Translations under genes and position numbers: made by a program
NCBI GenBank assembly: GCA_012729535.1
Contig: JAAYCY010000005.1
Coordinates: forward strand, 1 to 64,000
Length of the DNA stretch: 64,000 nucleotides
Reading direction: 5' to 3'
Source: Methanomicrobiales archaeon
GTDB lineage: Archaea > Halobacteriota > Methanomicrobia > Methanomicrobiales > Methanospirillaceae
Shown here: one piece after another, positions 32,035 to 43,176 of the stretch
Numbering within the stretch: the first letter of the stretch is position 1
Layout: each line of letters opens with the position of its first letter
Notes under the pieces: model-generated
Told to the model about the DNA's origin: nothing
The model's input: the letters and a program-made list of their open reading frames with translations, nothing else
Databases searched by the model: none

Positions 32035-32550
32035 ATGATGTTTGCGAAAATGCAGTGTGAAATGTGCGGCGCAGAAGCCAAAGGCCCTTTGAAAAGGATC
32101 AAGATCGAAGGGACTGAACTTTCTGTGTGTAATGCCTGTGCTAAATATGGAACTGAAGTACAGGGAACAGCTCTCCGGTCTTCAGCACCATCGTCTTCGA
32201 AACCAACCGGTTTTCAAAGTCAGGGAAAAACCCAGACTGCCCATTCCAGGGACCTATTTGACAGGTTAGGAGAGATTGTTGAAGATTATTCTGACCGGAT
32301 ACGGGATGCAAGGATGAAGCTGGGTATGACACAGAAAGATCTTGCCCTTGCGATGATGGAGAAAGAACTTCTGGTAAAGAAACTTGAAAAAGGTGAATTA
32401 GTCCCTGAAGACGCTGTCAGAAAAAAATTAGAGAAAACACTGAGTATTCGTCTGATTGAAGAAGAATCATCTGAACCAGCAGACCTTCATCATGCACGGA
32501 TGACAACCACCATGGGCGACGTTATCCGTATCAAGAAGGCTAAGAAGTAA
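32035..32550 (+). CDS. Archaeal multiprotein bridging factor aMBF1
   Basis: This 171-residue protein has an N-terminal zinc ribbon (CEMCGAEAKGP and CNACAKYG) and a C-terminal Cro-type HTH (about 80-135: IRDARMKLGMTQKDLALAMMEKELLVKKLEKGEL). This order matches aMBF1, the archaeal relative of the eukaryotic MBF1 bridging factor. Archaeal members associate with ribosomes or transcription factors. The start may be either of the first two ATG codons (32035 or 32038). It is divergent from PAN copy 2. The T7 run at 32557-32563 probably ends its transcript. Confidence 0.92.
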   Translation: MMFAKMQCEMCGAEAKGPLKRIKIEGTELSVCNACAKYGTEVQGTALRSSAPSSSKPTGFQSQGKTQTAHSRDLFDRLGEIVEDYSDRIRDARMKLGMTQKDLALAMMEKELLVKKLEKGELVPEDAVRKKLEKTLSIRLIEEESSEPADLHHARMTTTMGDVIRIKKAKK

Positions 32551-32600: not shown

Positions 32601-32624
32601 CATGTCATGCTATGGCATGGCATG
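32601..32624. promoter_or_regulatory. Inverted repeat in front of the aro operon promoter
   Basis: CATGTCATGC and GCATGGCATG are 10-base arms with one mismatch, separated by 4 bases, ending 10 bases before the TATA box of the aro leader. This is a good candidate operator for a repressor or activator of the operon (inference). It is not a terminator, because no T-run follows. Confidence 0.5.
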
Positions 32625-32634
32625 ATAACGAAAC

Positions 32635-32642
32635 CTTTAAGC
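32635..32642 (+). promoter_or_regulatory. BRE/TATA element of the aro operon
   Basis: CTTTAAGC preceded by an A-rich CGAAAC stretch fits an archaeal BRE/TATA. About 26 bases from its centre falls position 32663-32665, the ATG of the leader ORF, predicting a leaderless transcript. Confidence 0.5.
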
Positions 32643-32664: not shown

Positions 32665-32808
32665 ATGACAAACTGCGTGGAGGAGATAGTATCTGCAAAA
32701 ACCTGCAGCCTAGCTTCCGCCAGCCTGTTGAACGAATTGTCTGTCAGATTATTCGGTTATCGTTTTTATCAGTTCTTTTTTAGCTTTTTCCGCTTTTTCT
32801 GGTACTGA
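32665..32808 (+). CDS. Aromatic leader peptide of the aro operon (attenuator ORF)
   Basis: This is an unreported 47-codon ORF, ATG 32665 to TGA 32806-32808, directly in front of the chorismate/Phe/Tyr operon. The first 29 residues are ordinary. The last 18 read FGYRFYQFFFSFFRFFWY: 13 of 18 are aromatic (9 Phe, 3 Tyr, 1 Trp), and the last two sense codons are Trp and Tyr. Bacterial leader peptides such as PheL and TrpL show this pattern, where ribosome stalling at scarce aminoacyl-tRNA controls the operon. The start sits at the predicted transcription start and has no Shine-Dalgarno, so leaderless initiation is expected. The stop lies inside a hairpin (32801-32823) and 33 bases before the first aro gene. 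The Phe codons also create T-rich tracts, so an oligo-T terminator read as Phe codons is the main alternative; the Tyr, Trp and stop positions argue for a peptide. Confidence 0.72.
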   Translation: MTNCVEEIVSAKTCSLASASLLNELSVRLFGYRFYQFFFSFFRFFWY

Positions 32809-32823
32809 GTTGTCACTCGTACC
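32801..32823 (+). promoter_or_regulatory. Attenuator hairpin 1 (spans the end of the leader ORF)
   Basis: GGTAC (32801-32805) pairs with GTACC (32819-32823). After a bulged T, GAGT (32807-32810) pairs with ACTC (32815-32818), loop TGTC. The 9-pair stem contains most of the Trp codon, the Tyr codon and the stop of the leader, so a ribosome at the end of the leader must open it. Confidence 0.55.
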
Positions 32824-32835
32824 AAACCGGAGTGA
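32813..32835 (+). promoter_or_regulatory. Alternative hairpin 2 covering the aro Shine-Dalgarno
   Basis: TCACTC (32813-32818) can pair with GAGTGA (32830-32835), which includes the ribosome site GGAGTGA (32829-32835) of the first aro gene. It shares ACTC with hairpin 1, so only one of the two can form. Confidence 0.5.
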
Positions 32836-32841
32836 TTTGTT

Positions 32842-33642
32842 ATGAGAGGTAAAGATATCAGACTTGAAAGAATCATGAACCGCAACACGAGAAAGACCAT
32901 TATTGTTCCGATGGATCATGGAGTTACTCTTGGTCCCATTCCTGGACTTATTGATCTTACGGAAGCAGTAAACTCTGTTGCTGAAGGTGGAGCAAACGCA
33001 GTCCTTGGTCATGTTGGTCTGGCCCTTCACGGACACCGGCAGCGTGGCCATGATGTGGGACTAATCCTTCATCTGTCAGCATCAACGGCAATAGGACCTG
33101 ATCCAAATGAGAAAGTCCTTGTCAATTCTGTGACGAATGCTCTTAAAATGGGGGCAGATGCAGTCTCAATGCATGTAAATATTGGTGCAGATTCAGAAGC
33201 CCAGATGCTGACAGACCTTGGTCATGTAGCGATTGAATGCATGGAATGGGGTGTCCCGCTTCTTGCGATGATGTACCCCCGGGGAAGAAATATACAAAAT
33301 GAACATGATGTGGAACATGTCAGCCTGGCTGCACGGGTTGCAGCAGAACTTGGTGCTGATCTGGTAAAGACCAACTACACAGGCGATCCGGATACATTCC
33401 GCGAAGTTACCAGGGGATGTCCAGTTCCAGTAGTTGTTGCAGGCGGATCAAAAACAGAAGATCTCACCACCCTTGAACTCATAGAAGGTTCTATGGAAGG
33501 GGGAGCAGCAGGTCTTTCGATTGGCAGGAATGCATTCCAACACGAAAATCCCTGCTCATTCGTTCGTGCCTGTGCAAAAATAGTTCACGAAGGATTCTCT
33601 GCAGTTGAAGTTAATGAGATGCTGAAAGGAGGGATGTTATGA
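32842..33642 (+). CDS. ADTH synthase AroA' paralogue 1
   Basis: This 266-residue protein of the DhnA/class I aldolase family acts at the entry to the archaeal shikimate route. AroA' condenses a 6-deoxy-5-ketofructose phosphate with aspartate semialdehyde to 2-amino-3,7-dideoxyheptulosonate. The expected catalytic positions are present: D25 in PMDHG, Y145 in MMYPRG and the Schiff-base lysine K176 in [14 protein letters not shown] near the C-terminus binds phosphate. The ATG at 32842 follows GGAGTGA by 6 bases. The gene overlaps the next by 4 bases (ATGA). Because a closely related paralogue follows, either may instead make the deoxyketofructose phosphate from sugar phosphates, as the MJ1585 homologue does. 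Confidence 0.88.
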
Positions 33643-34412
33643 TTGGAAAAGAGATACGTATTGAACGTATAATGGACCGGAATACCGGTAAAGCCGTTAT
33701 AATTCCCATGGATCATGGTATGACTCTCGGCCAGATAGATGGTCTTTTGAATATGACTGAAACAGTAGCAGAGGTATCTAATGGTGGTGCTAATGCAATC
33801 ATCCTTCATAAAGGCCTGGTAAAAAGGGGACATAGAAGAAAAGGACGGGACATTGGCCTCATTATTCATTTATCTGCAGGGACCAGCATGAATCCTGATC
33901 CTAACGATAAAGTTCTCATCTGCAGTGTTGAAGAAGCTGTTTCTCTTGGTGCTGATGCTGTTTCCATTCACATCAATCTTGGAGCTCCTCAGGAATCCAG
34001 AATGATTGAATCAGCAGGACAGGTTGTCCGTGACTGCAACCGATGGGGAATTCCACTTCTTGCCATGGTTTATCCCCGTGGTCAGGGGATTAATCCGACT
34101 GATCCACGACATGTTGGTCATGCTGTCAGGGTTGCAGAAGAGCTAGGTGCAGACCTGGTAAAGACCAATTACACCGGAGATCCCGAATCTTTTGCAAAAA
34201 TTGTAAAAGCATCATCGATTCCTGTTTTTATTGCCGGGGGAGAGAAAGGAGAGGATATTGACTCGTACAATTCAATATACGATGCAGTTCACTTTGCCAG
34301 ATGTGCAGGAGTATGCATGGGGAGAAATGCGTTCCAGCGTGATAATGTCGCAAAATTTGTATCAAATGTCTGTAAGGTTGTTCACGAAGGAGTCCGCCCT
34401 GACAATATTTGA
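33639..34412 (+). CDS. ADTH synthase AroA' paralogue 2
   Basis: This 257-residue protein is about as long as paralogue 1 and aligns along its whole length: [10 protein letters not shown] (D25), MVYPRGQG (Y145), LVKTNYTGD (K175) and the phosphate loop AGGEKGED. Both copies therefore keep the catalytic set. The start overlaps the stop of paralogue 1 (ATGA) and the gene ends 6 bases before aroB'. In methanogens two members of this family share the first two steps, with the fructose-bisphosphate-aldolase-like one supplying 6-deoxy-5-ketofructose-1-phosphate. Sequence reading alone does not show which copy does which. Confidence 0.88.
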
Positions 34413-34418
34413 GGAATT

Positions 34419-35405
34419 ATGAAACAGGTATTTGTTGACCTCAGGCCCTGGAACAAGGAACTTGCAATAGTAGCCCTTGAATCAGGTGCCGATGGTGTTA
34501 TAACAGAATCTGCAGTGCCAGTTCGAGAACTTGGTCGTATTCTGGTTATTGCTCCTGATGGTGATCTCGTTCTGGACAAAGATATCAGGGAAATGACCAT
34601 TGAAAGCACTGATGATCAGGCTCTTGCGATGGCAGCTGCCAGGTCAGGGCGGATAATTGTCCATACTCCGGACTGGACAATAATCCCTCTTGAAAACCTT
34701 GTTGCCTGTGGTGAAAATGTCATAGCTGCTGTAACGAATATGAAAGAAGCAAAGCAGGCTTTGACAGTTCTGGAAAAAGGAGTCGCCGGTGTTCTTGTAA
34801 AGACAACAGATCCTGATCTTATCCGAAATATTGCGAAACTTGCCCAGGCAGGATCAACCGGCCAGCAATTGCATAACATTTGTATCACCGCGGTGAAACC
34901 TGCCGGTATGGGAGAACGTGTCTGTGTTGATACTTGTTCACTCATGGTAGATGGAGAAGGAATGCTGGTTGGAAATACATCTTCAGGCTTTTTTCTCGTT
35001 CATGCTGAAACTCTTACAAACCCGTATGTTGCACCCCGGCCATTCAGAGTAAACGCTGGCGGAGTGCATGCCTACCTGCAGATAACCGGAGGAAAGACTG
35101 CATACCTTGCAGATCTGAAAGCAGGAGACCGAGTAAACATTGTTCATGGAAATGGATCCTCCCGGGAAGCTACTGTAGGGCGGGTAAAAATCGAGAGAAG
35201 ACCTCTATTTCTTGTTGAGGCTGAATTTGAAGGTCAGAAATTATCAGTAATACTCCAGAATGCAGAGACCATCCGGCTGGTAAGACCAGATTATTCTGCA
35301 GTATCCGTCACTTCCCTTAAACCTGGTGACATTGTTCTTGGTAGTGTCGAAAGTGGAGGCCGTCACTTTGGCATGGCAATTGATGAAACCATCATTGAGA
35401 AGTAA
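34419..35405 (+). CDS. 3-dehydroquinate synthase II (AroB')
   Basis: This 328-residue enzyme deaminates and cyclises the AroA' product to 3-dehydroquinate in the archaeal pathway, using NAD. Signature segments are VFVDLRPWNKELAIVALESGADG at the start, GMGERVCVDTCSLMVDGEGMLVGNTSSGFFLVHAET in the middle, and PRPFRVNAGGVHAYLQITGGKTAYLADLKAGD. This family is unrelated to bacterial AroB. It starts at 34419, 6 bases after the paralogue 2 stop, and is followed by tyrA one base later, as part of the same operon. Confidence 0.94.
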   Translation: MKQVFVDLRPWNKELAIVALESGADGVITESAVPVRELGRILVIAPDGDLVLDKDIREMTIESTDDQALAMAAARSGRIIVHTPDWTIIPLENLVACGENVIAAVTNMKEAKQALTVLEKGVAGVLVKTTDPDLIRNIAKLAQAGSTGQQLHNICITAVKPAGMGERVCVDTCSLMVDGEGMLVGNTSSGFFLVHAETLTNPYVAPRPFRVNAGGVHAYLQITGGKTAYLADLKAGDRVNIVHGNGSSREATVGRVKIERRPLFLVEAEFEGQKLSVILQNAETIRLVRPDYSAVSVTSLKPGDIVLGSVESGGRHFGMAIDETIIEK

Positions 35406-35406
35406 C

Positions 35407-36231
35407 ATGAAGATTGGTATCATTGGCGGAACGGGAGGAATGGGAAACCTTTTTTCAGAGGTGTTCAAAAAATCTGGCCATGATGTGTTTGTTTCAGGAA
35501 GAAAAACAGAAATTACCAATGAAGACATAGCCCGTCTTACAGACATCGTAATCATTTCGGTTCCCATAAGTGAAACGGTACCGGTTATTTTAAAAATTGC
35601 CCCTCTCCTGAAAGAACATCAGATTCTATCCGATTTTACGTCTCTTAAAGTAGAACCAATTCATGCTATGCTAACATCCAGGGCACGGGTTATTGGATTT
35701 CATCCCATGTTTGGCCCAACTGTAGGCTCTATTCATGGTCAGACAATAATAGCCACCCCTGTCAGATGCAAAGAAGATGATATTTTGTTTTTTACCTCAC
35801 TCTTCGAAGGTCAGGGTGCACGAGTTACCCTGACCTCTCCTGATGATCATGATAAAATGATGGCAGTCATCCAGGGCCTTACTCATTTCAAAGCGATACT
35901 CTTAGCTGGAACGATGAGAAGACTCGGAATTTCACCTGCCGATACCGAGGTATATATGAGTCCGGTATACCGGATTGAAACGGGAATTGCCGGGAGACTC
36001 CTTTCTCAAAACCCAGAACTGTATGCAGATATTCTCTGTATGAATCCGTATTTCCCAGAAGTCCTCTTAACCTGTCAAAATGCAGGACGGGAGATGGCAG
36101 ATATTATTTTTAAGGGTGACCGGGATGCATTTCAAAAAGAATTTTTAGCGTCAAAAGAATGGTTTGGATCATTTTGTGACCAGGCACAGGAAGAGACAGA
36201 TCATTTAATCCAGGCTATGGTGGAAAAATGA
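35407..36231 (+). CDS. tyrA: Prephenate dehydrogenase
   Basis: This 274-residue enzyme oxidises prephenate to 4-hydroxyphenylpyruvate for tyrosine. The N-terminal Rossmann fold shows GIIGGTGGMGNLF (residues 3-15), then VSGRKTE for NADP/NAD choice. The catalytic region has SDFTSLKVEPI and IGFHPMFGPTV with the conserved His. There is no fused chorismate mutase. The ATG at 35407 immediately follows the aroB' stop; the frame is open to 35326 but earlier starts lie inside aroB'. It overlaps pheA by 4 bases (ATGA). Confidence 0.9.
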   Translation: MKIGIIGGTGGMGNLFSEVFKKSGHDVFVSGRKTEITNEDIARLTDIVIISVPISETVPVILKIAPLLKEHQILSDFTSLKVEPIHAMLTSRARVIGFHPMFGPTVGSIHGQTIIATPVRCKEDDILFFTSLFEGQGARVTLTSPDDHDKMMAVIQGLTHFKAILLAGTMRRLGISPADTEVYMSPVYRIETGIAGRLLSQNPELYADILCMNPYFPEVLLTCQNAGREMADIIFKGDRDAFQKEFLASKEWFGSFCDQAQEETDHLIQAMVEK

Positions 36232-37022
36232 CACTGATTACACTCGGGCCACAAGGCACTTTTTCTCATTATCTTGCACAGTCACTGGATACTGATATTA
36301 TCCTTGTTCCCTCAATTGGGAGAATCTTTGCTCATATTGTAGAGTCAGGAATATCAGGACTGGTTCCACTTGAGAACAGTGAGGCTGGAGGAGTTGCAGC
36401 TACTATGGATGGGTTGATGCAGTACCCGGTATTCATCACTGCAGAAACATATCTCCCCGTTCACCATTGTTTCGCTTCAGATTACCCTATGGATAAAATA
36501 TCGGTAATATTTGCCCATACACAAAGTCATGAACAATGTAGCAGATTTGTTGACAAACTTGGTCTTCCGGTAATTCATACTGAAAGTAATGCTGCAAGTG
36601 CAAGATCGCAGACAGAAAAACCTGGTTCAGCGGCAATTATTTCTAGAACTCTAGCTGAAACGCATAAAATACCGGTACTGGCAGAGAATATTGAAAATAA
36701 TCAGGATAACATTACCCGGTTTATCATGGTAAGTAAAAACCGTGGATCTGAAAAAAATCCAGAAAAATGTAGTATAGTTGTGGATCCTGGTGAAAACAGG
36801 GCTGGGCTTTTATATGATCTGTTAAGTCCATTTAAGGATAACGGGGTGAACCTGACCCGGATAGAATCACGCCCATCAAAACGTTGTATGGGCAATTATG
36901 TTTTTTTCATTGACATTCAGTGTGAAGGTGGGTGGAAAGAAGCAGTTGACCAGATAATCAGGATTACCCGGGTAAAACATCTGGGTTGTTACCGGGTACT
37001 CGGAGATGCCTCATGCAGGTGA
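36228..37022 (+). CDS. pheA: Prephenate dehydratase
   Basis: This 264-residue enzyme converts prephenate to phenylpyruvate for phenylalanine. The PDT domain opens with LGPQGTFSHYLAQ, has PLENSEAGGVAATMDGL, and ends with the catalytic NITRFIMVS (Thr-Arg-Phe). A C-terminal ACT domain (about 185-260) keeps the phenylalanine-binding LTRIESRPSK, so feedback inhibition by Phe is expected. No chorismate mutase domain is fused. The start overlaps tyrA by 4 bases and its end overlaps aroA by 10. Confidence 0.93.
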   Translation: MTLITLGPQGTFSHYLAQSLDTDIILVPSIGRIFAHIVESGISGLVPLENSEAGGVAATMDGLMQYPVFITAETYLPVHHCFASDYPMDKISVIFAHTQSHEQCSRFVDKLGLPVIHTESNAASARSQTEKPGSAAIISRTLAETHKIPVLAENIENNQDNITRFIMVSKNRGSEKNPEKCSIVVDPGENRAGLLYDLLSPFKDNGVNLTRIESRPSKRCMGNYVFFIDIQCEGGWKEAVDQIIRITRVKHLGCYRVLGDASCR

Positions 37023-38305
37023 CTATTGGAAAATGTGGTCCGGTAGATGTGACACTCTCTGCACCAGCATCAAAAAGTTATACCCACCGTGCATTGATAC
37101 TTGCAGCCCTTGCAGATGGAGAGTCAAAAATTATTGGTCAACTAGATGCTGATGATACCCGGATGACTGCACGTGCTCTCATGCAGCTTGGAGTCCGAAT
37201 TGAATGGAGCAAAGAATGTATCAGGGTTTATGGCAGGGGAGGCTCTCTCTCAATTCCAGGTGCTGCTATTGACATCCAGGATTCGGGAACCTCCATGCGT
37301 CTATTAACCACCGTCTCCCTATTAGCTAAAGGTCCGGTAATTCTTACGGGAAGTCCCAGAATGCAGGAGCGGCCTGTGGGAGTCCTTGTGGATACCCTGA
37401 ATTCTGCCGGAGCAAAAATATCATATCTGAAAAATAATGGATTTCCTCCCATTAAGATTGAAGGTTCTGTTCCATCAGGAGAAATCACGATTGATGGAAG
37501 TATTTCCAGTCAGTTCATTTCGTCAATACTACTTTCTGTCCCTTATGCAAAAGAAGAAGTCAGACTGCATCTTACAGGTGAACCAGTCTCTCTTCCATAT
37601 ATCATGATGACAATAGACAGCATGCAGGCATTTGGAGCCAGTGTCTCATTAGATAAGAAAGATAATGAACCAGTTTTTATTGTTTCGCCAAAGCATCAAT
37701 ATCAGCCACGCAGGTTTAGTATAGAAGGAGACTTTTCTTCTTGTTCGTACTGGTTTGCCCTTGCTGCAATTCTGGGTGGTTCTGCGACCATACAGGGTCT
37801 GAATCCTTGTTCTGCACAGGGAGATAGAAGATTTCTGGATGTCCTGGAAAAAATGGGGTGCACCAGAACAATTACCGGAGATGCTATTACCATCAGCCGA
37901 GACATTAAAGTTCCATTGAAGGGAATTGATGTAGATATGGCAGACTGTCCTGATGTTGTGCAGACAGTCTGTATGGTTGCCGCGGTTTCACAAAGCCCTA
38001 CCCGGATTTTCGGAGTTCATCACCTCCGCATGAAAGAGAGTGACAGAATTGCTGCAATCGCAAAAGGTCTTACCGGGCTTGGTGGAAACGTTGTGACAAA
38101 AGAAGATGAAGTGATTATTTACCCAAAGCCGCTTCATGGCGGAGTAATTCATCCTGAAAATGATCATCGTACTGCAATGAGTTTTGCAATACTTGGTTGT
38201 GCAATAGGAGATGTCACAATCCTTGATGCAGGATGCGTTACAAAATCTTATCCAAAATTCTGGGAGGAGTTACGACGGATATGGCAAAACGCCGTATCGT
38301 GCTGA
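37013..38305 (+). CDS. aroA: 3-phosphoshikimate 1-carboxyvinyltransferase (EPSP synthase)
   Basis: This 430-residue enzyme joins shikimate-3-phosphate and phosphoenolpyruvate. It has the family hallmarks APASKSYTHRALILAALADG (substrate Lys and Arg), DSGTSMRLLTTVSLLAKGPVILTGSPRMQERPVG, SSQFISSILLSVPY and HLRMKESDRIAAIAKGL near the C-terminus. The start ATG at 37013 overlaps pheA by 10 bases, and the gene overlaps the kinase-dehydrogenase fusion by 25 bases, indicating tight coupling. Confidence 0.95.
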   Translation: MQVTIGKCGPVDVTLSAPASKSYTHRALILAALADGESKIIGQLDADDTRMTARALMQLGVRIEWSKECIRVYGRGGSLSIPGAAIDIQDSGTSMRLLTTVSLLAKGPVILTGSPRMQERPVGVLVDTLNSAGAKISYLKNNGFPPIKIEGSVPSGEITIDGSISSQFISSILLSVPYAKEEVRLHLTGEPVSLPYIMMTIDSMQAFGASVSLDKKDNEPVFIVSPKHQYQPRRFSIEGDFSSCSYWFALAAILGGSATIQGLNPCSAQGDRRFLDVLEKMGCTRTITGDAITISRDIKVPLKGIDVDMADCPDVVQTVCMVAAVSQSPTRIFGVHHLRMKESDRIAAIAKGLTGLGGNVVTKEDEVIIYPKPLHGGVIHPENDHRTAMSFAILGCAIGDVTILDAGCVTKSYPKFWEELRRIWQNAVSC

Positions 38306-39663
38306 TTGGGTATCGGGGAACAGGAAAGAGCAGTATTGGAAAATCTCTTTCTGCAAAAACCGGACAAAGTCACATTGATACAGACCAGCTTATCGAGGAT
38401 GCAACAGGAAAAAAAATCCCTGAAATATTCAGGGATGAGGGAGAGGAAGGTTTTCGGGAGATTGAGCAGCATGTTATCGCCAGGATACCATCCGGAGCAG
38501 GTATAATTAGTACTGGTGGAGGAGCAATTCTTCGTTCAGAAAATGTCCGGATGCTCCGGATGAATAGTTACATGGTGTTTTTGACTTCAAGGCCTGAAGT
38601 AATAGCCCGGAGAATAACCGGAACAAATCGTCCATCACTCACCGGGATCTCCCCTGAAAAGGAGATTGAAATAGTCCTGAATGAAAGGTTATCTGCTTAC
38701 CGGAGTGCATCAGATTTTGTTATTGATACCAGTTCAACCTCCTCCAAACAGGCAGCATCTCTCATCCTGGATAAGATCAGCAGAGGAATGTCGAACTTAC
38801 AAAAAAGAAAAACTCTTTTTTCCATGGTAACAGATACTCCCATCCCGACACGGGAAATAGCCCACCTGAAGAAAATATCCGGTTACAATGACTTTTTTTT
38901 ATATGGTATTCTCGGGTACCCTGCAATGCAAAGTAAAAGCCCTGTCATCTACAACCATCTTTTTGCAGATTTTGGAATGCCTGCCCATTATACCTGGTTT
39001 GAATTCAAAAATCCTGCAGCGTTTCTTGCATCACTTCCTGGAACAGGAGTCAGGGGACTTTCTGTTACACATCCTCATAAAGAAACAATCATTCCCCATC
39101 TTGATGAAGTAAAACATGATGCGGAAAATATCGGTGCGGTAAACACCGTTCTAATTCTTGACGATCAAAAATTTGGTTTCAATACCGACTGGAAAGGGAT
39201 TTACCGCCCGCTTGAAGGAACTGAAGGTGATATTGCCGTTGTCCTTGGTGCAGGTGGAGCAGCAGCAGCAGCGGTTTATGCCGTTTCTATGCGGGGATAC
39301 AGACCAGTTATCCTCAACCGATCCCCTGACAGAGCAAAAGCACTTTCCCGGAAGAGTGGTGCGGAGATAGGGACACTTGATCAGATCTCAAAATTCTCTC
39401 CAGACCTTGTAATCAATGCAACACCAGTTGGAATGGGTTCAGACCCGCACATTCCAATCCCTGCATCTGCACTAAAGCCTGAGATGAAAGTGTTTGACCT
39501 TGTATACACTCCCCGGGATACTCCACTGCTTCAGGCTGCTCTTCAGGCCGGCTGCTCAGTTATTCCGGGAACTGAGATGTTTATCCATCAGCTAGCAGAG
39601 CAGTTTAAAATCCTGACTGGAATTGATACACCGATTATCAGACTTCGGGAGATGCTTTCATGA
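38281..39663 (+). CDS. Shikimate kinase-shikimate dehydrogenase fusion
   Basis: This 460-residue two-domain enzyme begins with a bacterial AroK-type P-loop kinase (residues about 1-170): GYRGTGKSSIGK (Walker A, from about 10), IDTDQLIE for shikimate, GTGGGAILR and the lid arginines. After a short linker of about 25 residues comes shikimate dehydrogenase AroE: YGILGYPAMQSKSPVIYN, the catalytic K267 in SVTHPHKE, D303 in NTDWKG, and the NADP loop GAGGAAAAAVYA. The two activities are consecutive steps. Archaea usually use a GHMP-type shikimate kinase, so the kinase half points to a bacterial source. There is no room for an AroD domain. Start ATG 38281; the stop overlaps aroC by 4 bases. Confidence 0.93.
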   Translation: MAKRRIVLIGYRGTGKSSIGKSLSAKTGQSHIDTDQLIEDATGKKIPEIFRDEGEEGFREIEQHVIARIPSGAGIISTGGGAILRSENVRMLRMNSYMVFLTSRPEVIARRITGTNRPSLTGISPEKEIEIVLNERLSAYRSASDFVIDTSSTSSKQAASLILDKISRGMSNLQKRKTLFSMVTDTPIPTREIAHLKKISGYNDFFLYGILGYPAMQSKSPVIYNHLFADFGMPAHYTWFEFKNPAAFLASLPGTGVRGLSVTHPHKETIIPHLDEVKHDAENIGAVNTVLILDDQKFGFNTDWKGIYRPLEGTEGDIAVVLGAGGAAAAAVYAVSMRGYRPVILNRSPDRAKALSRKSGAEIGTLDQISKFSPDLVINATPVGMGSDPHIPIPASALKPEMKVFDLVYTPRDTPLLQAALQAGCSVIPGTEMFIHQLAEQFKILTGIDTPIIRLREMLS

Positions 39664-40682
39664 ACACATTTGGACACAATTTCCGGGTTACAACATTCGG
39701 AGAAAGTCACGGAGCTGCAATCGGTGTTGTTATTGACGGTTGTCCTCCCGGTTTTTCATTGTCTGAATCAGATATCCAGCCATTTCTTGACAAGAGAAGA
39801 CCTGGTCAGAATGACCTGGTAACTCCCCGGAAAGAATCTGATGAAATACAGATTTTATCAGGAATTTTTGATGGTAAAACACTTGGAACTCCAATATGCC
39901 TGCTTATTCATAATACCTCGATGAAATCTGCGGATTATGATGAACTTAAAGATCTCTTCAGACCTGGTCATGCTGACCGGGGGTACATGGAAAAATATGG
40001 TATCCGGGACCATCGGGGTGGAGGACGAAGTTCTGGTCGTGAGACCGCAGCACGGGTAGCTGCTGGTGGAGTGGCCGCTCTTTTTCTTGCACAATACAAA
40101 ATACGGATTATTGGAACCCTGTTGCAGGTCAAGGGAGAAACAACACAGGACGGTATTGAAAAGGTTATCCGGACAGCCCGTGATTATGGGGAGTCTGTTG
40201 GAGGGATAATAGGGATTACTGTCTCCGGATGCCCTCCCGGTCTTGGAGATCCGGTCTTTGGGAAACTTGATGCTCTTATTGCCTATGCCATGATGGGTAT
40301 AGGGGGAGTAAAAGCGGTGGAGATAGGCTCTGGAATTACCGCTGCAGTTATGACCGGATCGCAGCATAATGACCAGATGACTCCGGATGGGTACCTCTCC
40401 AATAATGCCGGAGGAATTCTTGGAGGTATCTCTACCGGACAGGAGATTCTTGTTCGTCTGACTGTAAAACCAACTCCTTCAGTGAGGACTGTGCAAAAGA
40501 CCATTGACACCCAGGGTTTTGAAAAGACTATTTCTGTCCAGGGCAGGCATGATCCCTGTATTGCAGTCCGGATTGTTCCCGTTGCTGAAGCAATGATGTC
40601 TCTTGTTCTTATTGATGCTTTTCTGGAGCAAAGGAAAATTAATCCTCATTTTATGCAGGAGCCCAGATTTCAGCATGAATAA
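39660..40682 (+). CDS. aroC: Chorismate synthase
   Basis: This 340-residue FMN-dependent enzyme makes chorismate from EPSP. Typical segments are FRVTTFGESHGAAIGVVIDGCPPG, RRPGQ, the Arg/His-rich RPGHADRGYMEKYGIRDHRGGGRSSGRETAARVAAGG, and the C-terminal RHDPCIAVRIVPVAEAM. It closes the biosynthetic part of the operon. It begins on the ATGA overlap with the fusion gene and overlaps the U32 gene by 8 bases. Whether the FMN is reduced in cis or by a partner cannot be read here. Confidence 0.96.
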   Translation: MNTFGHNFRVTTFGESHGAAIGVVIDGCPPGFSLSESDIQPFLDKRRPGQNDLVTPRKESDEIQILSGIFDGKTLGTPICLLIHNTSMKSADYDELKDLFRPGHADRGYMEKYGIRDHRGGGRSSGRETAARVAAGGVAALFLAQYKIRIIGTLLQVKGETTQDGIEKVIRTARDYGESVGGIIGITVSGCPPGLGDPVFGKLDALIAYAMMGIGGVKAVEIGSGITAAVMTGSQHNDQMTPDGYLSNNAGGILGGISTGQEILVRLTVKPTPSVRTVQKTIDTQGFEKTISVQGRHDPCIAVRIVPVAEAMMSLVLIDAFLEQRKINPHFMQEPRFQHE

Positions 40683-43176
40683 ACGTCTTCCCCTCCTTCT
40701 TGCACCTGCAGGATCTAAAGAGGCCCTTTATGCTGCATGTGCAGCTGGTGCAGATGCCGTTTATCTTGGTGGCAGACAGTTTGGAGCCAGGCAGTTTGCA
40801 GCAAATTTTTCTAACGAGGAACTGGAACATGCGGTCAGGTATGCTCATCTCCGGGGTATAAGGGTCTATATTACTGTTAATACTCTTATCACCGAACATG
40901 AGGTTTCTGATGTTGTCAGGTACCTGGTATATCTTTATAAAATCGGTGTAGATGGGGTTCTTATCCAGGATATCGGGCTATTATCCCTTGCTCATCAGTA
41001 TATCCCTGACCTTACTCTCCATGCATCCACCCAGATGGGAATTCATAATGTTCCGGGAGCCGTGTTTGCTGCAAAACACGGGTGTAGCAGGATAGTTCTA
41101 GCCCGTGAACTTAATCCGGAAGAAATACGGGAAATTGCAAAGGAATTATCCGGTCTTGATGTGGATCTTGAGATCTTTGCTCACGGTGCTCTTTGTTATG
41201 CCTATTCGGGCCGGTGTCTTCTCTCTTCTCTTGTTGGAGGAAGAAGCGGGAACCGGGGGATGTGTGCCCAGCCTTGCAGGAAACTCTACCAGCTTGAATC
41301 TGGAACCAAAGACCTGTGGGGACGGCTGGAGAATGAAAAACCCGATGGACATCCGGAATATCTCCTTTCAACAAAGGATCTCTCGGTATATCCTGTCCTT
41401 CCTGATATTGTGAATCTCCCGGTTTCGGTTTTGAAAATTGAAGGGCGGATGAGGTCACCTGAGTACGTGGCAGCAGTAACATCAATATATCGAAAAGTCC
41501 TTGATGCTATCCGGAATAGAACGTTTCATCCTGATCCCGAAGATATTGCCAATCTAACAATTGCTTTTTCCAGGGATTTTACAACCGGATATGTATCCGG
41601 AGCAGGTTTTTCTGATGTAATGGGCAGAAAATACCCTGGCAATCAGGGATATTGTATCGGAAAAATTATCTCTGCCCGGAAAGGAAAAGTCCAGGTCAGA
41701 CTTTCTTCTTCAATTATTCCGATGCAGGGTGATGGACTTGTTATCAGAGATTCTGACCGGGAAGAAGGTCTTATTCTCCGGAATAATCCAGTCGTGAATG
41801 GAGATATTATTGAATTGCCATCCCCCTTTAATCCAAAACCCGGAGCTCAGGTCAGCATCACGAAAAGAAGACTTCTCGATAAGAAAATATCGGAACTTTT
41901 AGGTTCTCCGGACGAGCGATATGCCGGTTCTCTTAAGATTTCATGTTCGGTGAATTTCTTCCATGATGGTAAAATTTCCGGAACAGGGACAGTAATTGAC
42001 CGGAATTCATGTGTTCATCCATTTGAATATCAGAGTCAGGAAACTGTTGAACCGGCAAAAACCCGGTCACTTTCCCGGGAGCAGATTTTAGAGCAGTTGA
42101 ATAAAACCGGGGGGACACTCTTTTCATTTTTAGAGATAGTAGTAACCGGAGAAGAAGGACTATTTGCCCCGGTCCGGGTGCTCAATACCTTACGGAGAGA
42201 AATTCTCCTTGCTGCAGAAGATGCAATTATCAAATCCAGAATTCCCAGACCCGAATCTATCTCCGGAATTCTGAAACGATGTGATGATATTACAGGAAAA
42301 AAAGAACCTGTTCAGAGTATACCATTATCTGACTTAGAGCTAATTTCTATCGTTTCTTCAACTGCAGAGGCACGTGCAGCACTTGAGAATGGATCTTTCC
42401 GGGTGTACCTGCTCTGGGAGCCATCCGGATTGGATATTTCATCTCTTCTGGAATATTCCGGCCGGATAGGGATAATGGTTCCCGGAGTCATCAGGCAGAA
42501 AGAGCTCGAAATATTTCTTACAGATTTCCAAGACATTATCTCTGCCGGAATTTATCACGTTCTTGTTGATTCACCTGGCATTGGTGAATATCTCATCGAA
42601 AAATTCCCCGGGATTTCAGTATCCGGATACTATGGCCTTCCTGTCACAAACAGCAGAACGGCCGGAGTATTTTCAGATTTTGAGTTCTGCACACTTTCGC
42701 CTGAACTTTCCGGACAGGAGATCCGGTTTTTGTGTTCAGGATATCAAAAGGCAGAAGGTCCTGACCTTGCGGTCTGCTGTCAGGGGCTGATTGAAGCTGC
42801 CGTAACAGAGGATAATCTCTGTTCTCTCTCATCTGTGAGCGGCTCTAATTCTTTTGCAATCCGGGATGAAAAGAGGTATTCTTTTCCGTTTTATTGTGAA
42901 AAGTCCGGCAGAACACATATTCTGAATTCATCAGAACATAGTCTTGTTGATGAATCTTCAGATCTCATGAAACTCGGTATCCGGCGTTTTATCATTGATG
43001 CCCGGAACCGTGGAATGGATTATGCCGCTGGGATGACAAGGCTCTGGAAACAGATTCTAAATGATGAAATTTCCAGCGAGGAAAGAGAATCAATCCGGGA
43101 AAAGATCATCGAAATGAGTTATCATGGAATTACGAGGTCCGGTTACAGAAGAGGACTTTCCGGAATAAAATCATAA
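40675..43176 (+). CDS. U32 family peptidase-like protein
   Basis: This 833-residue protein has the U32 domain over the first half: LLAPAGSKEALYAACAAGADAVYLGG, the characteristic EIFAHGALCYAYSGRCLLSSL, and GMCAQPCRKLY, whose cysteines may bind an Fe-S centre. The remainder resembles the C-terminal extension of long U32 proteins and ends in an additional alpha/beta part (about 560-800). Bacterial U32 members hydroxylate tRNA or rRNA bases and are not proteases in practice; the archaeal substrate is unknown. The start ATG at 40675 overlaps aroC by 8 bases, so it is expressed with the aromatic genes. The use of prephenate by some RNA-hydroxylating U32 proteins makes the location next to aroC interesting. 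Confidence 0.85.
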   Translation: MNKRLPLLLAPAGSKEALYAACAAGADAVYLGGRQFGARQFAANFSNEELEHAVRYAHLRGIRVYITVNTLITEHEVSDVVRYLVYLYKIGVDGVLIQDIGLLSLAHQYIPDLTLHASTQMGIHNVPGAVFAAKHGCSRIVLARELNPEEIREIAKELSGLDVDLEIFAHGALCYAYSGRCLLSSLVGGRSGNRGMCAQPCRKLYQLESGTKDLWGRLENEKPDGHPEYLLSTKDLSVYPVLPDIVNLPVSVLKIEGRMRSPEYVAAVTSIYRKVLDAIRNRTFHPDPEDIANLTIAFSRDFTTGYVSGAGFSDVMGRKYPGNQGYCIGKIISARKGKVQVRLSSSIIPMQGDGLVIRDSDREEGLILRNNPVVNGDIIELPSPFNPKPGAQVSITKRRLLDKKISELLGSPDERYAGSLKISCSVNFFHDGKISGTGTVIDRNSCVHPFEYQSQETVEPAKTRSLSREQILEQLNKTGGTLFSFLEIVVTGEEGLFAPVRVLNTLRREILLAAEDAIIKSRIPRPESISGILKRCDDITGKKEPVQSIPLSDLELISIVSSTAEARAALENGSFRVYLLWEPSGLDISSLLEYSGRIGIMVPGVIRQKELEIFLTDFQDIISAGIYHVLVDSPGIGEYLIEKFPGISVSGYYGLPVTNSRTAGVFSDFEFCTLSPELSGQEIRFLCSGYQKAEGPDLAVCCQGLIEAAVTEDNLCSLSSVSGSNSFAIRDEKRYSFPFYCEKSGRTHILNSSEHSLVDESSDLMKLGIRRFIIDARNRGMDYAAGMTRLWKQILNDEISSEERESIREKIIEMSYHGITRSGYRRGLSGIKS

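Follow-up and report, generated by a model that had tools for sequence, protein, structure and literature searches.

The window, by which we mean the whole 64-kb stretch of DNA analyzed here, carries on its forward strand an operon for the synthesis of phenylalanine, tyrosine, and chorismate. This had been stated in the sequence-only reading of the locus, and the Pfam and NCBIfam assignments agree. The first gene of the operon is aroA' (positions 32842 to 33642), encoding ADH synthase (TIGR01949), which is present as two tandem copies at the start of the operon. The remaining operon, from 33639 to 40682 on the same strand, encodes the second copy of ADH synthase, DHQ synthase II, prephenate dehydrogenase, prephenate dehydratase, EPSP synthase, a shikimate kinase-dehydrogenase fusion, and chorismate synthase. 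In the fusion (38233 to 39663), a bacterial-type shikimate kinase (PF01202) is joined to shikimate dehydrogenase; most archaea have a GHMP-type shikimate kinase. An open reading frame (ORF) that comes after chorismate synthase (40603 to 43176) is U32-peptidase-like. Its best NCBIfam match, the prephenate-dependent tRNA uridine hydroxylase TrhP, falls below the cutoff, and a link to the prephenate pathway is possible.

Immediately before the operon, at positions 32665 to 32808 of the forward strand, lies an ORF of 47 codons plus a stop that translates as MTNCVEEIVSAKTCSLASASLLNELSVRLFGYRFYQFFFSFFRFFWY and ends 33 nucleotides before the aroA' start codon (ATG at 32842). Thirteen of its final 18 codons (32752 to 32805, forward strand) specify Phe, Tyr, or Trp, with Trp-Tyr directly preceding the stop. 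When every stop-terminated 18-codon end in the 64-kb window was counted, on both strands, this one alone exceeded 8 aromatic residues. Shuffling of the 54 nucleotides of the tail gave a mean of 5.35 aromatic codons, with a probability of 5e-6 for 13 or more. The aromatic-tailed ORF of 47 codons, its Trp-Tyr end, and the 33-base distance to the first gene, all described earlier from the letters alone, were thus borne out. The AUG of this leader is in phase with the tail, and the frame is kept open in 12 genomes of the genus. A weak TATA-like stretch, CCTTTAAG (32634 to 32641, forward strand, position read from the sequence), lies about 27 nucleotides 5' of the leader AUG. It is a poor match to the box, and we infer a leaderless start for the window's leader from the promoter spacing of its relatives, described below. 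Between 32400 and 33000 there was no match up to an E value of 1 to a known riboswitch, T-box, or other Rfam family, and a plasmid collection searched with the leader DNA gave no match.

DNA 5' of aroA' was taken from 143 Methanomicrobiales loci and later from 15 more, two of which were from an already-sampled genome or cut by a contig end. An aromatic-tailed leader stands before aroA' at 154 untruncated Methanomicrobiales loci. Indeed, an aromatic-rich ORF end precedes the gene in essentially all untruncated loci, in sequences that are very diverged, with tails such as FFFSFYQFFWY, FWPFSGFRYFSYFWY, LFYFYFWF, RYFGYFWYFY, AFYRFYQF, and FYYRFYYWY. Over the 143 loci, Phe, Tyr, and Trp make up 54% of the last 14 codons; the other two frames have 10% and 20%, and shuffled sequence has 20%. 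The aromatic content of the tail reached a shuffle P of ≤0.05 in 140 of the 143. This content is at its maximum four to five codons 5' of the stop and fades past about 15 codons. Leu, Ile, and Val together account for only 5% of the last 14 codons at the same loci, which, along with the frame specificity of the aromatic codons, makes it less likely that selection acts simply on U-richness or on a hydrophobic helix. The aromatic-tailed leader was absent at 22 aroA' loci from other Halobacteriota orders. Relatives without the ORF, or with a frame that is not kept, had been named beforehand as the observation that would count against a leader, and we looked for them; both the ORF and its frame are kept across the order. 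The accompanying expectation, that Phe, Tyr, and Trp codons would be kept with synonymous change, was not supported. Changes in the linker and tail are spread evenly over the three codon positions, which gives no support for selection at the level of the peptide. Because the changes fall in this way, what is constrained, as judged from the alignments, is an open frame and aromatic content and not a peptide.

At 123 of the 154 loci, which come from six families, the AUG nearest the promoter begins a short ORF of 14 to 26 codons (15 in most), typically M(C/Q/R)GECFFA(G/R/S)(E/D)(C/R/G)(F/L)Y(L/R/H)x-stop. Relative to this AUG, the aromatic tail is in the +1 frame in 123 of 123 of these motif-bearing loci and never in the same frame. 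From the short stop to the tail stop, the +1 frame contains 0 stops in 4,569 codons, and the other frames contain 198 and 141. The linker lacks ATG, GTG, and TTG in the +1 frame in 70 of the 123. As a rule, a TATA-like box lies 26 to 30 nucleotides 5' of the leader AUG (mostly 25.5 in the window's own genus), by which spacing the mRNA appears to be leaderless or nearly so, and in the motif-bearing loci the leader is found 32 to 124 nucleotides before aroA'. That the tail of most genera is out of frame with its AUG, so that reading it from there requires the ribosome to shift +1 at a Phe/Tyr slip site, is a point that the sequence-only reading did not contain.

The short ORF is built from two 18-nucleotide units, or three in some loci. 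Site 1 has the plan RTG(A/G), NGY (GAT in one locus), and YTT-TTY, and site 2 is alike with YTT-TAY. At both sites, YTT is followed by T in 123 of 123 loci, and the next codon is Phe at site 1 and Tyr at site 2. After a one-base forward step, a tRNA that was paired with YTT meets TTT and can pair again, which is impossible from YTC. A conserved slippery codon able to re-pair in the +1 frame, as is looked for in a programmed +1 shift, is found at all 123 loci; there the slip codon is never TTC or CTC, and in the sampled aroA' genes TTC was counted 38 times and TTT 6 times. Variation falls mostly on the third positions of frame 0 (TTC/TTT, TAT/TAC, and GAA/GAG) or of the +1 frame, and hardly any is seen where the second position of frame 0 coincides with the first of +1, as expected of a stretch that is read in both frames. 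A Shine-Dalgarno (SD)-like RTGR tract occupies a fixed place at nearly all sites, with a weaker GGTGGA at about 10. In the clearest cases, and in AGGAGG register, this tract is 7 or 2 nucleotides from the slip codon, a spacing that is not uniform; the distance from the aroA' SD to its AUG has a mode of 9. The slip-site tract is usually the closer of the two, in a manner reminiscent of prfB, but at some sites it is weak or its spacing varies. Three repeat units are found at L033, L038, L040, L046, L047, and L059, where the first has Ser/Thr in place of Phe-Phe (MQGECSSARECFFAREGLYFR, then a stop) and so is nonslippery.

The motif appears to be confined to this locus. Its 18-nucleotide version occurs at most once per genome in 231 Methanomicrobiales genomes, at this locus wherever coordinates were comparable, and a reversed-pattern control gave a single match over all genomes. 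A 22-base version gave 65 matches in 84,980 bacterial and archaeal genomes, 57 of which have aroA' downstream by an automatic test. On inspection, seven of the other eight show or fit aroA', and one is at a contig end. The records bear titles such as Methanoculleus, Methanolinea, Methanofollis, and Methanoregulaceae, and one is a contig binned as Bacteroidales. That contig (L207), from a metagenome-assembled genome labeled Bacteroidales (Prado085), bears a methanogen leader and aroA' and is probably mis-binned.

The other 31 untruncated loci lack the short-ORF motif, and in these the promoter-proximal AUG is in phase with the tail. They belong to eight genera in four families: Methanospirillum (12, including the window), L013, L141, L025, L121/L130, g22 (5), g31 (3), and g38 (6). 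For a few of them (L264, L265, L268, and L013), the TATA box and AUG were chosen on weak boxes. The rule that loci with the motif have a +1 tail and loci without it have an in-phase tail had 0 exceptions among the 154. The leaders of genus g38 align end to end with those of the motif-bearing L137 (a member of genus g40), L200, and L239, and only one internal gap is not a multiple of three. This gap is a single missing base in the T run of site 1 (GAATG-TTTTTTTGCC against GAACG-CGTATTGCC); it is common to six of six g38 species and puts the AUG in phase with the homologous tail. From this alignment, the g38 genome appears to have hard-wired the shift that is proposed for ribosomes elsewhere. 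Comparison of L121/L130 with motif-bearing members of their family gave a net frame change inside the same short stretch, with a less certain alignment. In g22 and g31 (L156, L157, L264, L265, L267, L268, L275, and L276), the leader stop lies 120 to 230 nucleotides before aroA', with a long inverted repeat in between, for example, CTGCACCAGA...TCTGGTGCAG, an arrangement unlike that of the other genera.

Several further features surround the leader. The upstream neighbor in the window, on the same strand at 32035 to 32550, encodes the archaeal multiprotein bridging factor aMBF1 (TIGR00270), and a rough text search placed the aMBF1 C terminus ahead of the leader at 36 of 143 loci. Eukaryotic MBF1/EDF1 works at collided ribosomes and protects the reading frame, which makes the position of aMBF1 beside a putative frameshift leader suggestive. 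A palindrome, TGCTATGGCATGGCATG, lies 5' of the window's promoter at 32601 to 32624. Similar promoter-near palindromes were matched by one regular expression in 13 of 20 loci without the slip motif and in 0 of 123 with it, a distribution that raises the idea that in motif-less loci some of the control may have passed to a repressor operator. A second exact copy of the window's palindrome is at G000:C45:44070, where the adjoining genes have no obvious aromatic function. The trp operon (Chorismate_bind) was inspected in 17 relatives, and no aromatic leader was seen before it in those where its start was found. Near the trp promoter, upstream of trpE, there is instead a conserved TGTAYATATRTACA-like palindrome (L247, L249 to L255, L258, and L262), resembling a TrpY-type operator.

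Immediately after the tail stop is a hairpin whose 3' arm abuts or includes the aroA' SD and which shows compensatory changes in several genera. Folding of five motif groups with ViennaRNA gave the SD an unpaired probability of 0.17 to 0.35 in free RNA and of 0.50 to 0.65 with a ribosome at the stop covering the 5' arm; in some genera, such as Methanolinea, the changes in accessibility by this energy-based folding were modest. Pairing of the SD and its release by the position of the leader ribosome are thus seen in silico only. RNAalifold returned no structure for the Methanoculleus alignment, in which MAFFT had misplaced the arms; the CTCCCGGA/TCCGGGGAGG stem is visible by eye. A G+C hairpin with a U-run terminator was not found between the leader and aroA' in sequences or folds, and the post-stop hairpins run into the SD. 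Since archaeal termination rules differ from those of bacterial intrinsic terminators, the missing terminator lowers the case for membership in the PheL/TrpL type and not the case for function.

In Methanospirillum, folding gave a switch of three segments, all on the forward strand. Segment 1 (TGGTAC.GAGT, 32800 to 32810) overlaps the Trp and Tyr codons and the stop and pairs with ACTCGTACCA (32815 to 32824), the 3' hairpin arm within segment 2 (32812 to 32824). Segment 2 also contains an anti-SD, GTCACTC (32812 to 32818). When the 5' arm is covered, the anti-SD pairs with GAGTGAT of the aroA' SD (segment 3, GGAGTGAT, 32829 to 32836), and the accessibility of the SD falls from the range 0.34–0.54 to the range 0.00–0.18 (ViennaRNA). 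Changes on both sides of the segment 1 pairing distinguish the clades, and all three segments change coordinately between two Methanospirillum clades. Because covering the Trp-Tyr-stop arm lets the anti-SD close the SD, the SD is predicted to be more accessible with a ribosome stalled upstream in the Phe run than with one at the last codons.

On the basis of these sequence patterns, we consider it likely that the leader is a ribosome-sensing device, mostly leaderless, in which the ribosome opens a hairpin over the aroA' SD after a programmed +1 frameshift at Phe/Tyr codons, and that the window's genus has a simplified, in-phase form of it. Transcription would start at or just before the leader AUG, so that ribosomes load on a leaderless or nearly leaderless AUG. 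The putative ancestral form, kept in most Methanomicrobiales genera, would consist of the ORF of 14 to 26 codons (mostly 15) bearing the two slip sites in tandem. Under a shortage of Phe-tRNA or Tyr-tRNA, the ribosome would be slow to decode the aromatic codon in its A site, and the tRNA on YTT would slip +1 to TTT. The shifted ribosome would then enter the long +1 frame and get to the aromatic tail, and by lingering near the tail stop it would melt the hairpin that pairs the aroA' SD, allowing aroA' to be translated. With ample Phe and Tyr, the ribosome would keep to frame 0 and meet the early stop, and the hairpin would stay closed. In the window's genus, which lacks the slip motif and has its AUG in phase with the tail, competition among the Trp-Tyr-stop arm, the anti-SD, and the SD would take the place of the gate.

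Conservation, the frame relation, the invariance of the slip sites, the promoter spacing, the one-base deletion, and hairpin covariation are all observed. We infer from them that slippage occurs, that starvation would drive it, and that control would be exerted at translation. Ribosomes very probably get to the tail by +1 slippage from the AUG frame. There is a good chance that shortage of Phe-tRNA or Tyr-tRNA raises this slippage, since the A-site codon is always Phe at site 1 and always Tyr at site 2 and the operon makes exactly these amino acids. With more reserve, we lean toward an order-wide archaeal device in which Phe or Tyr shortage would cause a +1 shift at two dedicated tandem codons and so open the aromatic operon. 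Several findings count against the mechanism. The SD-like tract is unevenly spaced and at about 10 sites has the weaker GGTGGA, and the predicted changes in SD accessibility are modest in some genera. Codon-position analysis gave no peptide-level constraint, and a Methanospirillum ribosome stalled on the last two codons is predicted by folding to close the SD. In addition, the slip pair at site 1 usually has Phe as its first codon too, and starvation could therefore halt the ribosome one codon too soon at that site.

The best-surviving alternative concerns the output and is compatible with a frameshift gate. Archaeal RNA polymerase terminates at U-tracts, and the tail is 46% T with many runs of T4 to T6; an untranslated U-rich tail might therefore be an archaeal terminator, with ribosomes that trail RNA polymerase into the tail blocking termination. 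We regard such a transcriptional output as possible but doubtful. The T content follows from the Phe and Tyr codons, and a conserved hairpin that comes after the tail and touches the SD suits translational control. It is unlikely that two separate initiations, with no frameshift, account for the two frames. The tail frame would then start at a +1-frame RTG just before site 1, and an ATG or GTG is indeed present in that frame and place in 123 of 123 motif-bearing loci. However, the GTG of the common class is only 7 nucleotides from the leader AUG, where it is neither leaderless nor has room for an SD. A dual start also leaves unexplained the kept AUG, its TATA spacing, the frame 0 Phe and Tyr codons, the in-phase AUG of motif-less lineages, and the one-base deletion at the slip run.

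Slippage of RNA polymerase at the T run, in place of ribosome slippage, could also yield the +1 frame, and site 1 often has six or seven T's. At several loci, however, site 1 is no more than CTTTTC and site 2 no more than CTTTA, which are too short for efficient slippage, and what is conserved is an in-frame YTT followed by an aromatic codon, not the length of the run, making this route very improbable. Much the same low probability attaches to the reading of the promoter repeats as a DNA operator or an RNA protein-binding site with incidental ORFs: the tandem 18-bp repeats do begin at the transcription start, but the motif occurs once per genome, and the frame lock over the whole leader, the lack of stops, and the frame-specific aromatic content would go unexplained. 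A functional small aromatic or membrane peptide, suggested by a hydrophobic C terminus kept across the order, is scarcely credible given no sequence conservation beyond Phe, Tyr, and Trp content, a flat codon-position pattern, the near absence of Leu, Ile, and Val, no Pfam family, and a fixed place 32 to 124 nucleotides before aroA' in the motif-bearing loci.

If frameshifting at the leader operates as proposed, it would be the first archaeal amino-acid-sensing leader peptide, as far as the open-access literature shows, and, as far as we found, the first case in which starvation ("hungry codon") frameshifting has a conserved role in regulation. Sensing of charged tRNA through the ribosome would carry attenuation into the third domain, and archaea would gain a clear cellular case of programmed +1 frameshifting. 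A synonymous change of YTT to YTC at two codons would be expected to abolish regulation. The genera also form a natural series (motif, one-base deletion, and simplified in-phase leader) in which the cost and benefit of a frameshift gate can be compared. To our knowledge, the regulation of archaeal amino acid genes has been described almost only through DNA-binding proteins. The sequence-only reading knew of no established archaeal precedent for such a leader, and nothing relevant to archaeal leader-peptide attenuation was found in open-access full-text literature.

A 2021 review gives one case of demonstrated archaeal frameshifting, a −1 shift in an enzyme gene, the Saccharolobus alpha-fucosidase (PMC8211752), and for the haloarchaeal virus HSTV-2 a +1 shift is considered very likely (PMC5009743). 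The alpha-fucosidase is like the present leader in its recoding by archaeal ribosomes, but neither it nor the HSTV-2 case is a leader or a sensor. For hungry-codon frameshifting, a 2016 review knew of no examples that serve trans-frame products with a starvation-specific function (PMC5009743).

Like the bacterial attenuators PheL and TrpL, the locus has a short leader ORF rich in end-product codons before a biosynthetic operon, with regulatory codons for the products of the pathway. Unlike them, the leader is archaeal, lacks a terminator hairpin with a U-run, has its structure on the SD, and in most genera would be +1 gated. Of the proposed likeness to PheL and TrpL, the conserved, apparently translated aromatic leader before the operon stands; the structure that touches the SD and the lack of a terminator of their type do not fit, and since no such terminator was found, we do not class the leader as a PheL/TrpL attenuator. 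In bacterial prfB, a programmed +1 frameshift takes place at CUU-UGA with an internal SD. The slip sites described here are similar in having YTT and then T in the shift codon, a slow A-site codon, and, at nearly all sites, an SD-like tract just 5', although its spacing is not uniform. They differ in that the slow codon is a sense codon (Phe or Tyr), whereas that of prfB is a stop, in that there are two sites, and in that the product is no functional protein. Frameshifting in Escherichia coli pheL is regarded as an incidental by-product, and in the ermC leader with telithromycin, ribosomes that have shifted frame continue into the spacer, where they unfold the mRNA and make the downstream start accessible (PMC5009743). 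The opening of a downstream start by frameshifted ribosomes is what ermC shares with the mechanism proposed here. In ermC, however, an antibiotic induces the shift, whereas in the Methanomicrobiales the trigger would be a shortage of Phe or Tyr, sensed at dedicated and conserved codons.
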